Assembly (NCBI RefSeq): GCF_014696925.1
Contig: NZ_JACJQY010000010.1
Coordinates: 62,001 to 126,000, forward strand
Direction of reading: 5' to 3'
Origin: Phormidium tenue FACHB-1050
GTDB lineage: Bacteria > Cyanobacteriota > Cyanobacteriia > Pseudanabaenales > Pseudanabaenaceae
DNA: 64,000 bases
In this document: positions 54,170 to 59,609 of the stretch, piece after piece
Numbering within the stretch: position 1 is the stretch's first letter
Layout of the letters: every line of letters starts with the position of its first letter
The notes under the pieces: model-generated
The model's input: the letters and a program-made list of their open reading frames with translations, nothing else
What the model was told of the DNA's origin: nothing
The model's database searches: none
Position numbers and translations under genes: made by a program

Positions 54170-55567
54170 TTATGATTCGACTAATTGACGGGCAATGTAC
54201 CAAGTGAGAATCCCCGTTGCGATCGCGATCGCACTTAGCGCAAAAATTACCTTCTGCAATCCAAAATAGGACTCAGCGATACCTGCTACTGATAAAGGCA
54301 AACTGAGGGCAATATTTACGGCATTATTCTGTAAGCCAAAGACTTTGCCACGTACATCTTCAGGGGTTTCTTCTTGGATCACCGTCTGCATCGGAATTAC
54401 ACATAAACCCGCAAAAATGCCAGTACCCGCGATCGCAATTAGTCCCAAACCAAAGCGATCGCTAAAAACCGCCAACATCCCTAAAAATACTGACATCCCA
54501 AGAGAGCCAATTAAAGAAAGCATTTGACGGCTACAGCGATCGCCCAGTTTTGCGACAATTCCTGCACCTATCGCCATCCCCAAACTTGCTACAGCTAATA
54601 AAAATCCAAACTGTTCTGATTTAATTTCAGGCATTACCTCGGCTAAACGCACAGCTAATACTGTCAAAGCGGCAATGATCGAAAAAGTGCAAATTAATTG
54701 GATCAGAGCTGATAGTGAAGTCTTCTTATGATTGAGATATTGCAAGCCTTCTTTGATGTCATTCCAAAGGTGAAAACTATCACGGTGTAAGTCTTCTTTG
54801 GTTTCACCTGTTTTCAATAAAATTAAAATAATCCCTGCGAGTAAATAACTGCCACCCACAAGGATTTCTTGACCGACATTGTGCCAGAGATGATCGGATA
54901 GGGCTAAGAGTGGTTCACCAAGGGCAAATCCTAAAATCAACGCCGCCATAATCGTGGTTGTGTAGAGAGAATTGGCTGCTAGTAATTTGGGCTTCTCCAC
55001 GACAAGGGCGATCGCTGACTGTTCGGCGGGAGTAAAAAACTGCGTAAAGGTTGAGACAAGAAAAGTAATGCACAATAAACCCCAAAAGCCTGTTGGTGCG
55101 CCCCAAGGCAACACACTATTTTTAGTAACCCAGAGTAAGAGGGGAATGCTGAGAACTAAGACTCCTCGCAGAATATTGGAACTAACTAAAACTGTTTTTT
55201 TATTCCAGCGATCGATATATACCCCAGCGATCGATCCAAATAAAATCGCAGGAATGGTAAATGACACCATGACTGCGGAGACCCAACCACTAATTGTTTC
55301 GCCCTCTTGCTGAAATTGGGTAGAAACGATCGCAATCACGAGTACTAAAAAAATCTTATCGGCAATCTGCGAAAAGACCTGTCCGCTCCACAGCGATAAA
55401 AAATTAGGATTGCGAAGCACAGATTTAGAATCGGTAGGTAAATCTGGTGTTTCTAGGGTTTCGCCATTTAAGATTTCGCCATTGCCATTATTAATGTGAA
55501 GATCTGCGTGATGATGATCGGGTGGTTCTGGCAGATTGGGTGTAGGTGGATCGAATAAATGGGTCAT
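54170..55567 (-). CDS. MFS transporter (efflux type)
   Basis: A 465-residue major facilitator with a polar N-terminal tail of about 50 residues and about twelve hydrophobic segments. Family signs are the N-terminal NPNFLSLWSGQVFSQIADKIFLV, the A-motif GVYIDRWNKKTVL and LGDRCSRQMLSLIGS, and a central loop with LHRDSFHLWNDIKEGL. The pattern matches MFS_3-type exporters of drugs or metals; substrate is unknown. Its ATG overlaps recO's stop by 4 bp, so the two are in one operon with recO upstream. Confidence 0.92.
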   Translation of the reverse strand: MTHLFDPPTPNLPEPPDHHHADLHINNGNGEILNGETLETPDLPTDSKSVLRNPNFLSLWSGQVFSQIADKIFLVLVIAIVSTQFQQEGETISGWVSAVMVSFTIPAILFGSIAGVYIDRWNKKTVLVSSNILRGVLVLSIPLLLWVTKNSVLPWGAPTGFWGLLCITFLVSTFTQFFTPAEQSAIALVVEKPKLLAANSLYTTTIMAALILGFALGEPLLALSDHLWHNVGQEILVGGSYLLAGIILILLKTGETKEDLHRDSFHLWNDIKEGLQYLNHKKTSLSALIQLICTFSIIAALTVLAVRLAEVMPEIKSEQFGFLLAVASLGMAIGAGIVAKLGDRCSRQMLSLIGSLGMSVFLGMLAVFSDRFGLGLIAIAGTGIFAGLCVIPMQTVIQEETPEDVRGKVFGLQNNAVNIALSLPLSVAGIAESYFGLQKVIFALSAIAIATGILTWYIARQLVES

Positions 55568-56400
55568 ATATTAAAAAAACAGGTGTCAATCAGAGCCGAA
55601 GACTGGATTGGTCTATCAAAATGATACTGTGCATAGGCTCGTAACAATCTTTCAACTGCAAGCCAATCTGTTGTATGCGTTTCTAAAATATTATCTGCTA
55701 AATCAGTCTGTGCAAGTTCTTGCATAGCAAGAAGTTCAGATGCATTGAGGTAGTGACTAATGCGATTATACATAGCATCACTAATGCTTAGCTCAGGGCG
55801 ATCGCCGTTCGGATTACCGTCATTCGCAAGATCGGTTATTTCGAGATTGATGACTCCGCCGCCAACTATGCTAAATCCTGCTTTCCATTTTGGCTGGTGG
55901 CGATTGGCAACCACTGGGCTTTGGCTAATGCAGCAACTATGCACTTGTGGCGCAAATCCTGCGATCGCCAATAGGTGATAGATCCCATGATTCAAATGAG
56001 CCAAAACATTTTGATTTTCAGCTTCCTGAATACGATTTAGATGCTCGATTAGTACTAAAAAAAGTTCTTCCTGTGGTTGAGCGGATAATGCTTGCATGAG
56101 GGCAAGTTCTGACAAATATTGAGCTGCCGTGAGCTTAGCTAGAGTTTTACCTAAACCGACAAAAGACTGTAACACTTCCGCATTTTTAATCCGATCCATA
56201 TTGCGTCCTGCGGAAATCTGCAAATCATTAACCACAAATAAGCCCGATCGCCCTGCCATTGGTGAGCGATGTTTTCTCGCTCCTGCGGCTACGGCTCTGA
56301 TCAATCCATGCTCCTTGGTGAGGATCGTCAGCAGGCGATCGTTTTCACCTAAGGGCATACCCTTAAGATTGATTCCTGTGGCGCGATATTCTTTAGGCAA
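55564..56400 (-). CDS. recO: DNA repair protein RecO
   Basis: RecO helps load RecA on SSB-coated DNA in recombinational repair. The 278 residues show the N-terminal OB fold (RATGINLKGMPLGENDRLLTILTKEHGLIRAVAAGARK in pieces), SPMAGRSGLFVVNDLQIS, then the helical domain with LHLA-like LLAIAGFAPQVHSC. The zinc-binding cysteines of the C-terminal domain are reduced to CC in HSCCIS, as in other cyanobacterial RecO. It overlaps the MFS gene by 4 bp. Confidence 0.93.
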   Translation of the reverse strand: MPKEYRATGINLKGMPLGENDRLLTILTKEHGLIRAVAAGARKHRSPMAGRSGLFVVNDLQISAGRNMDRIKNAEVLQSFVGLGKTLAKLTAAQYLSELALMQALSAQPQEELFLVLIEHLNRIQEAENQNVLAHLNHGIYHLLAIAGFAPQVHSCCISQSPVVANRHQPKWKAGFSIVGGGVINLEITDLANDGNPNGDRPELSISDAMYNRISHYLNASELLAMQELAQTDLADNILETHTTDWLAVERLLRAYAQYHFDRPIQSSALIDTCFFNI

Positions 56401-56491: not shown

Positions 56492-57001
56492 ATGAATCCT
56501 GCCAATCGCGATTTGAGTTCGGTTTTAAGCCGAATTACTAATAAGTTACAACAAGATCAAGTTGTTAGTGACACCCTACAAAAGCTTAGGGAACAGCTTA
56601 ATGTTGATCGCGTGGTTTTGTATTACTTCTACACGCAATGGAAGGGACAAGTAACCTTTGAGGCAATCAGCGATCATAGATACTCGATCATTGGTTCAAC
56701 GGGGGCTGATGATTGTTTCAATTTAGAATATGCAGCGCTTTATTTGGCGGGACGTATCCATGCTATTGATGATATTGAGCAGGCTCCTATCAGTGATTGT
56801 CATCGAGATTTTTTGCGGGAGATGCAAGTGCGATCGAATTTAGTTGCACCTGTATTAACTAATGAAAAATTATGGGGGTTAGTAGTTGCTCATCATTGTC
56901 AGGATTGTAAGATCTGGCAAAACTCAGATATTGACTCAATCTGCCAACATTCTAATTATTTGGCTTCTGCTTCTTCAATTAATGCTTCACAAGCTAACTA
57001 A
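56492..57001 (+). CDS. Stand-alone DXCF-type cyanobacteriochrome GAF protein
   Basis: A 169-residue protein that is only a GAF domain. It contains the chromophore Cys-His pair (SDCHRDFL, Cys103-His104) and, 28 residues earlier, DDCF (residues 73-76, Cys75), the DXCF second-cysteine motif. The 28-residue spacing is the same as in the DXCF photoreceptor TePixJ (Cys494 and Cys522). LWGLVVAHHC follows, as in bilin-binding GAFs. DXCF receptors typically sense violet/blue versus green/orange light. No output domain is present, so a partner protein is expected. It runs divergently from recO; the intergenic gap is 91 bp. Confidence 0.87.
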   Translation: MNPANRDLSSVLSRITNKLQQDQVVSDTLQKLREQLNVDRVVLYYFYTQWKGQVTFEAISDHRYSIIGSTGADDCFNLEYAALYLAGRIHAIDDIEQAPISDCHRDFLREMQVRSNLVAPVLTNEKLWGLVVAHHCQDCKIWQNSDIDSICQHSNYLASASSINASQAN

Positions 57002-57147: not shown

Positions 57148-57975
57148 TTACTTTACTGCGAAGCCCTTATTTTTTTCTAGAACGAATCGATAGGCTTGAA
57201 ATCCTGTAAAGTTTGCTCTCTTCTCCGAATTAGGAAGCGCACTGGCTACATGCTCAAAGGGAGATAGATGAGCTGGCTTAGAAGTTAAAAGGCGATCGTG
57301 CAGTTTCACATCATCGGTGAGGCTCCGCACCCCATCGTGATTGAGGTAACTAACCCTCGCACAGCGTCCTACCGCTACTTTGACCAATTCATTAATATCG
57401 CTAATTTCATCAATATCTTCTTGTTTAATTAATGGTAAGTGCCATTCACCTGCGCCTAGTTGTTGGGGTTGACTAGCATCATAGGCAGCTTTCATCTTAT
57501 GAGCTAAGGATTGAATTTCAGGCTGTGCATCAGGATGACAGCGCTGTTCAAAAAAGTTTTGATATTCGGTTCCTGAACAAATTACCGTAATTGTGGAAAA
57601 GGGTTCCAAAAGTCGGTTGACTACTTGTTTGTGAATACCAATATGCACTAGTTGCTTAGCGTGATGGATAGCGTCATTTTTAGCTGATTTCCATACCTCC
57701 GCCGCCGCTTGCATCTCATCTTCTGTAACTTCGGTTTGCGCCGACATTCCCTTTTGGTTTTTCCCCCAATGTAATGGATAGACTTCTTGGCTCTCGACAA
57801 GTTTGATCATTTTCTCAACGGGAATAGCGCGACTGCTGCTGCTATTTTTGCTGAGCATTCGATGGGTCATGAATTCTGAGTGAATCATGCGATGGTAAGT
57901 TAACACAAAAGTCGTTAGGCGATCGCCTGTTAAGTTAACGCTATCAGCGATGATGGCGGCTTGGGGTTGAAACAT
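57148..57975 (-). CDS. thyX: ThyX-like FAD-dependent thymidylate synthase
   Basis: A 275-residue protein with ThyX characters. The signature RHR-x-N-x-S-x-R loop appears as THRMLSKNSSSSRAIP (about 38-53), a divergent form with Thr for the first Arg. Other matches are HRMIHSEFM, and a C-terminal HLSPFEHVASA/FVLEKNKGFA region. ThyX methylates dUMP with methylene-tetrahydrofolate and FAD. It stands alone leftward of a MITE-like repeat. The divergent loop leaves some doubt about activity. Confidence 0.85.
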   Translation of the reverse strand: MFQPQAAIIADSVNLTGDRLTTFVLTYHRMIHSEFMTHRMLSKNSSSSRAIPVEKMIKLVESQEVYPLHWGKNQKGMSAQTEVTEDEMQAAAEVWKSAKNDAIHHAKQLVHIGIHKQVVNRLLEPFSTITVICSGTEYQNFFEQRCHPDAQPEIQSLAHKMKAAYDASQPQQLGAGEWHLPLIKQEDIDEISDINELVKVAVGRCARVSYLNHDGVRSLTDDVKLHDRLLTSKPAHLSPFEHVASALPNSEKRANFTGFQAYRFVLEKNKGFAVK

Positions 57976-58691: not shown

Positions 58692-58949
58692 ATGAGTTTA
58701 CAAGAAAGAGCTAAGGCTGCTGCCAAAAATATTGAAGGCAAGGTTGAAGAAGCTGTTGGTAATATCACTGGCGATCCTGAAAGACAGGCTTCAGGGCAAG
58801 CAAAGCAAGTTGAAGCTGAAGTTAGAAATGTATCTGAAGATGTCAAAGACAAAGCTAAAGATGTTGCCAATATTGTCCAAGAAAAGGCTAAAGATGTTGC
58901 TGATGCTGTAAAGGCTAAGGCTAGAGATGCTAAGAATGCTATTGACTAA
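58692..58949 (+). CDS. CsbD family stress-response protein
   Basis: A small 85-residue, highly charged, hydrophilic helical protein of the CsbD family: AKAAAKNIEGKVEEAVGNITGDPERQASGQAKQVEAE (in pieces) is the family core, followed by KDKAKDVANIVQEKAKDVADAVKAKA heptad-like repeats like LEA-type proteins. CsbD is part of the general stress regulon in other bacteria; function is unknown. It is preceded by about 270 bp of AT-rich sequence without genes, and followed by a second CsbD gene. Confidence 0.87.
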   Translation: MSLQERAKAAAKNIEGKVEEAVGNITGDPERQASGQAKQVEAEVRNVSEDVKDKAKDVANIVQEKAKDVADAVKAKARDAKNAID

Positions 58950-59117
58950 AATTTAATTATCTAAATAAATAGTCTTAAAGAATTTGATGGTTTAATCCAA
59001 ATAAACTATCAAAAAACTAAATTTAACTTTCAATATCTAGAAATAAATTTAGCCTTTACAAGCTTTTTTTAGCTAATAAAATTTTAGCCTTCCAATTTTT
59101 TAAAGGTTAATCAGAGA

Positions 59118-59609
59118 ATGAAAATGATTTCACGATTTTATCGAGCATTAATGACTATTGGTTTAGTTTCTTTCTTCTCATTCGCCTTAGTTTTAGGACT
59201 TGCGGTTGAGAATAGTTCCGCAGCACAGTCATTCAATCAGATAGTTGATTCTTCCCATGCACCGATCGCCATAATGGAAAGAGTTAAATCAACAGCCAAA
59301 GATCTTGAAGGTAAAACTCAAGAAGCGATCGGTAATGTCACAGGTGATGCCGAAAATCAAATTATTGGTAAAGCAAAGCAAGCTGAAGCGGCTTCTCGGA
59401 AAGTGACTGAAAATATCAAGGAAGGTGTGAGGTTGCCAGAACGAGTGAAAGCAAATGTCGAAAATCTGGAAGGAAAAACCCAAGAAGCCTTTGGTAATTT
59501 GACAGGCGATCGCCAAGATCAGATTGTTGGCAAAGCCAAGCAAGTAGAGTCAAAGACTCGCAATTTGATGGAAGATGCGAAAGACAAAGTTAAAGGAATG
59601 TTGAAATAA
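59118..59609 (+). CDS. Exported protein with two CsbD domains
   Basis: A 163-residue protein with a signal peptide (IGLVSFFSFALVLGLAVENSSAAQ) and two tandem CsbD modules: MERVKSTAKDLEGKTQEAIGNVTGDAENQIIGKAKQAEA (about 55-95) and LPERVKANVENLEGKTQEAFGNLTGDRQDQIVGKAKQVE (about 110-150). The duplication is clear from the paired LEGKTQEA(I/F)GN motifs. Export distinguishes it from the cytosolic CsbD gene 170 bp upstream. It ends with DKVKGMLK. Confidence 0.87.
   Translation: MKMISRFYRALMTIGLVSFFSFALVLGLAVENSSAAQSFNQIVDSSHAPIAIMERVKSTAKDLEGKTQEAIGNVTGDAENQIIGKAKQAEAASRKVTENIKEGVRLPERVKANVENLEGKTQEAFGNLTGDRQDQIVGKAKQVESKTRNLMEDAKDKVKGMLK

Follow-up and report, generated by a model that had tools for sequence, protein, structure and literature searches.

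Cyanobacteriochromes (CBCRs) are usually regarded as sensory units connected to an output, and the output-less BLUF protein PixD is known to signal through a partner protein, PixE. In the CBCR TePixJ, two cysteines hold the chromophore: C494 bonds C10 of the bilin and C522 bonds its A ring (PMC6955287). For the DXCF subfamily, a blue-absorbing dark state formed through the C10 thioether and isomerization of phycocyanobilin (PCB) to phycoviolobilin (PVB) are expected, while the Trp motif WXDXXL marks the extended red/green (XRG) CBCRs (PMC11284453). The term "stand-alone GAF" has been used for PHY-less GAF domains from or within larger proteins (PMC6798134, PMC6696110). Our literature search for output-less or stand-alone CBCRs, outside which many subscription papers lay, returned no description of a family; the output-less family reported here appears undescribed as such in searchable papers, the part already known being that Alr3356 of Anabaena PCC 7120 is a CBCR.

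We investigated one gene in a 64,000-nt stretch of DNA from Phormidium tenue FACHB-1050 (the window; Table 1). Its product contains five cysteines, and the only domain above the Pfam cut-off was a GAF domain (PF01590, E = 1.3e-17) at residues 22–156, after which 13 residues remain before the stop. No kinase, GGDEF or MCP output of the kind found in multidomain CBCRs is present in the same polypeptide, and this bears out the original prediction that the protein has no output domain.

Table 1. Coordinates of the gene, its motifs and adjacent features in the window.
Feature	Position	Strand	Remark
Stand-alone DXCF cyanobacteriochrome-type GAF protein	56492..57001	+	169 aa; coordinates include the stop codon
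DXCF motif D73-D74-C75-F76	56708..56719	+	Equivalent of TePixJ C494; C10 linkage expected
C75 codon (second cysteine)	56714-56716	+	Inside the DXCF motif
C103 (canonical bilin-attachment Cys, predicted) and H104	56798..56803	+	Equivalent of TePixJ C522/H523
Family-specific C-terminal tail, residues 160-169	56969..56998	+	At this point, multidomain CBCRs run on into the signalling helix
recO, divergently transcribed neighbour	55564..56400	-	Context, not part of the system
Dispersed palindromic repeat just 3' of the stop codon	57010..57096	.	Context, not part of the gene

Sequence, profile and fold comparisons all pointed to CBCR GAF domains. The nearest solved chains by sequence were two of them, miRFP670nano (2.1e-23) and TePixJ (5.7e-23), and CBCR GAFs also ranked first when a profile was made from 52 orthologs (6oap, 3.5e-38; RcaE, 6.7e-34; TePixJ, 1.1e-33). 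An AlphaFold model built from the ortholog alignment (mean pLDDT 84) matched miRFP670nano with TM scores of 0.81/0.90 and the blue state of TePixJ (4glq) with 0.76/0.86 (rmsd 1.6), so that bilin-binding CBCR GAFs are the closest relatives in fold; the protein has no PHY domain. Together, these comparisons uphold the earlier assignment of the protein as a DXCF CBCR GAF.

The cysteine motifs were examined in an alignment of 102 stand-alone orthologs reaching down to ~43% identity. A canonical Cys followed by His lies on the bilin-attachment helix (C103-H104), and a second Cys lies in a D-X-C-F motif 28 residues before it. The DDCF motif was correctly placed at residues 73–76 by the original prediction, whereas its SDCH motif, given as 102–104, had slipped by one residue: the motif reads S101-D102-C103-H104, with C103 as the canonical Cys. 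The spacing itself had been rightly equated with that of TePixJ, as C75 to C103 and C494 to C522 are both 28. All 102 orthologs keep this spacing as well as C75, F76, C103, H104, R40, Y44, W50, G71, Y80, A81, Y84, R88, L127, W128 and G129, and D73 is kept in 92. Pairwise dN/dS values against close relatives were 0.12–0.23, which, together with the invariance of both cysteines and of their spacing, argues that the pair did not arise by chance. Where XRG CBCRs have Trp, every ortholog has Gly (G71), and a second Cys is present, indicating a DXCF rather than a red/green type. Two further positions were compared: residue 107, the counterpart of the TePixJ pocket residue Q526, is Phe (F107) in 98 of the 102 orthologs, and Tyr occupies position 45 in 98 of the 102 stand-alone proteins versus none of 30 GAFs from multidomain proteins.

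The C-terminal end is likewise shared. Stand-alone orthologs read roughly L-A-x-A-P-S-I around I163 (kept in 91 of 102), and every one of the 102 aligned sequences reaches its stop 1–14 residues (most often 3) past this position, whereas in multidomain relatives the chain carries on as QLAIAIQQA... and enters the signalling helix. For the stand-alone family, the point at which the protein ends is a conserved feature in its own right.

We then surveyed the distribution of the family. In the P. tenue genome itself, the next best of 27 matches was a GAF within a 942-aa frame (39% identity, 4.5e-35), whose product carries PAS, HisKA and HATPase domains. Close matches were found in 21 of 31 good genomes of the same taxonomic family and, at a threshold of 1e-38 or better, in 129 of 390 sampled Cyanobacteriia genomes. 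The stand-alone gene is present in 126 of these 390 genomes (G056, G003 and G004 were excluded because their sole match lies in a long protein), usually as one copy, with two copies in this sample only in G177 (C5). Named genomes with the gene are those of Pseudanabaena, uncultured cyanobacteria and Chlorogloea purpurea. The matches fell on two sides of a score gap: those at 1.1e-43 or better were all in frames of 136–288 aa, and the weaker ones among those listed (6e-41 and above) were all in frames of at least 656 aa. Beyond the class, none of 38 genomes from the phylum, non-photosynthetic and other sister lineages included, had a member; the phages and viral contigs searched contained no relatives, and the plasmids searched gave distant matches only, of which two fall under genes annotated as multidomain. 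A tree was built from 51 stand-alone orthologs and 30 multidomain-protein GAFs, the majority of which came from the same genome; in it, the stand-alone proteins formed one clade with a long stem and a support of 100/100. The closest multidomain GAFs were those of GAF-GAF-kinases, although with a support of only 80/76. The P. tenue gene is one representative of a monophyletic family that never carries an output and usually has one copy per genome, not an oddity of one strain.

The neighboring gene is recO, as stated in the original prediction (TIGR00613, 5.8e-25), and the same adjacency occurred at nine other loci, all from Pseudanabaena or Pseudanabaena-like genomes. In an Anabaena-like family the gene order is ndhH, GAF and Methyltransf_28, and ndhH lies next upstream on the same strand at nine ortholog loci. 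Clustering of the neighbors at ~90 loci yielded genus- or family-level linkages only, with no partner common across families and no operon partner. Apart from the final tens of bases in some members of the genus, upstream footprinting revealed no conserved regulatory element, and a promoter scan upstream of the P. tenue gene gave nothing.

Downstream, the palindromic repeat has arms of 41 nt; the genome contains ~23 occurrences of its core and none of the same core read backwards. It is followed by a convergent gene (57148-57975) for a ThyX-like protein, possibly a divergent ThyX, which scored 48.6 bits against an NCBIfam cut-off of 87.9 bits and was above that of Pfam. A frameshift or truncation of the GAF gene was considered and rejected, since the orthologs end alike and the 3' side consists of the dispersed palindrome and this convergent gene. 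Farther on (58692-59609), two small CsbD-like stress-type proteins are encoded side by side, with repeated 'LEGKTQEAIGNVTGD'-like units recognized by eye.

With four bilin reductases and two heme oxygenases encoded in the genome, bilin is available. Two of the four reductase genes overlap in tandem elsewhere in the genome (L157:2205-3690, C25) and are PebA/PebB-like by position. Another locus (L156, C64:10000-20000) combines two response regulators and a sensor kinase whose GAF is of the CBCR type with several adjacent genes: a bilin reductase, a phycobiliprotein-like gene, a phycobiliprotein beta/alpha pair and a HEAT-repeat lyase-like gene. Judged by eye, the region resembles a chromatic acclimation cluster of the RcaE/F/C type.

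One member of the family has probably been encountered before. In Anabaena PCC 7120, alr3355 is ndhH (PMC8147232) and, given that ndhH precedes the gene on the same strand at nine ortholog loci, Alr3356 is very probably, by synteny, an ortholog of the P. tenue protein. The alr3356 gene, annotated as "similar to phytochrome", was upregulated 3.94-fold on FurA depletion, and FurA bound its promoter in vitro in an EMSA; the authors call Alr3356 a CBCR, citing Ma et al. 2012, and nblA, a phycobilisome-degradation gene, is in the same list of FurA-repressed targets (PMC4788461). For the group to which Alr3356 would belong, our data show the single clade and the nine loci with ndhH upstream; the P. 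tenue locus itself adjoins recO. The FurA link comes from one organism and would extend to the P. tenue gene through synteny and orthology. The study of Ma et al. reportedly covered seven DXCF GAFs of Nostoc, which were blue-absorbing with dark states near 420 nm; going by the citation, Alr3356 was presumably among them.

Based on these results, we consider it fairly probable that the P. tenue protein is a soluble single-domain DXCF CBCR that signals in trans via a separate partner protein. From its sequence and its relatives, we infer bilin binding, colors, a partner and a physiological role as follows. The apoprotein would attach PCB at C103, as in the DXCF subfamily, and the PCB would probably be wholly or partly isomerized to PVB. 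In the dark, an additional bond between C75 and C10 of the bilin would produce a blue-absorbing state. Illumination with blue light would flip the 15,16 bond and release C75, whereupon a green- or teal-absorbing state would form. As Q526 of TePixJ is replaced by Phe in the family, the color and the formation of PVB may differ from those of TePixJ. Most likely, a separate protein would dock on the GAF and read its photostate, with no covalent coiled coil. Such reading by a separate protein is suggested by the absence of a kinase, cyclase or MCP and by a signalling helix that is cut at one common point in all orthologs; signalling in trans is thus argued from the missing output domain and from conservation, not from a named partner. 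With the Anabaena ortholog repressed by FurA, the sensor would probably be produced under iron shortage or oxidative stress, and the photoreceptor role is perhaps tied to iron or redox state. A fuller proposal, which we advance tentatively and with less confidence than signalling in trans itself, is that this old, usually single-copy, output-less DXCF family acts as a diffusible blue/green switch that binds a widely conserved partner only in one photostate, with its expression set by FurA and iron, as a bilin counterpart of PixD.

The original prediction had left a choice between a soluble light-sensor subunit and a bilin sink. The former stands as the best reading, and the latter is unlikely. 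As a bilin carrier, sink or isomerase, the protein would bind PCB, perhaps make PVB, and buffer or shield free bilin, for example during phycobilisome turnover, with its light reactions being incidental. An output-less single domain with no signalling neighbors would be in keeping with such a task, as would the repression by FurA that the Anabaena ortholog has in common with nblA (PMC4788461), but attachment of the bilin to the canonical Cys would be irreversible, making the protein a poor carrier, and the gene is single, with no amplification. The DXCF cysteine weighs further against a sink: in this subfamily it forms the light-dependent C10 bond, for which storage has no need, and it is invariant in every one of the 102 orthologs. 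Slightly less likely still is a redox or iron/thiol sensor, in which a dual-Cys GAF with bilin or haem would report thiol redox or iron status instead of light color. The control of the Anabaena ortholog by FurA (PMC4788461) fits this idea, and an additional Cys, C136, is conserved in 96 of the 102 orthologs; however, C136 also occurs in 27 of the 30 GAFs from multidomain proteins, so that it is not special to the stand-alone family, and the pocket signature is fully CBCR-like. It is very improbable that the gene is a decayed CBCR, the drifting remnant of a multidomain sensor kinase whose output domain has been lost, for although the nearest multidomain GAFs do belong to GAF-HisKA/HATPase kinases, an independent recent truncation would be needed in each lineage, and this is contradicted by the single clade (100/100) on its long stem, by purifying selection (dN/dS 0.12–0.23), by the invariant motif and by a C-terminal end conserved over many families.

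The occurrence of a strictly conserved output-less family in about one-third of the sampled genomes suggests that a shared downstream partner has probably been missed. A natural protein of this small size allows a direct test of trans signalling by CBCRs and could serve as a scaffold for blue/green optogenetic binders made of a single domain.

Among known systems, the DXCF CBCRs of the TePixJ and Tlr0924/SesA types resemble the P. tenue protein in the GAF fold, the DXCF Cys, the canonical Cys-His with its spacing of 28, and the pocket Asp, His and Asn, but their GAFs sit in larger proteins with an output module, which is absent here; TePixJ also differs in having Q526 where the stand-alone family has Phe, and Y45 is particular to the latter. 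The GAF-GAF-kinases with a DXCF GAF (L151, L152, L153) have G71, D73, C75, F76, A81 and F107 in common with the family, yet they are multidomain and lack both Y45 and the cut C-terminus. The case of miRFP670nano demonstrates that a lone CBCR GAF of similar size folds and binds bilin (PMC6336887), although it is a fluorescent tag engineered from one CBCR GAF and not a natural stand-alone gene. PixD (Slr1694-type) is similar in being a small photoreceptor without an output, a functional analogy only, as its chromophore is a flavin and its fold is different. Alr3356, in turn, shares its gene order with the nine ortholog loci, ndhH and then the gene on the same strand making it the likely ortholog by synteny, and it has itself been described as a cyanobacteriochrome (PMC4788461).
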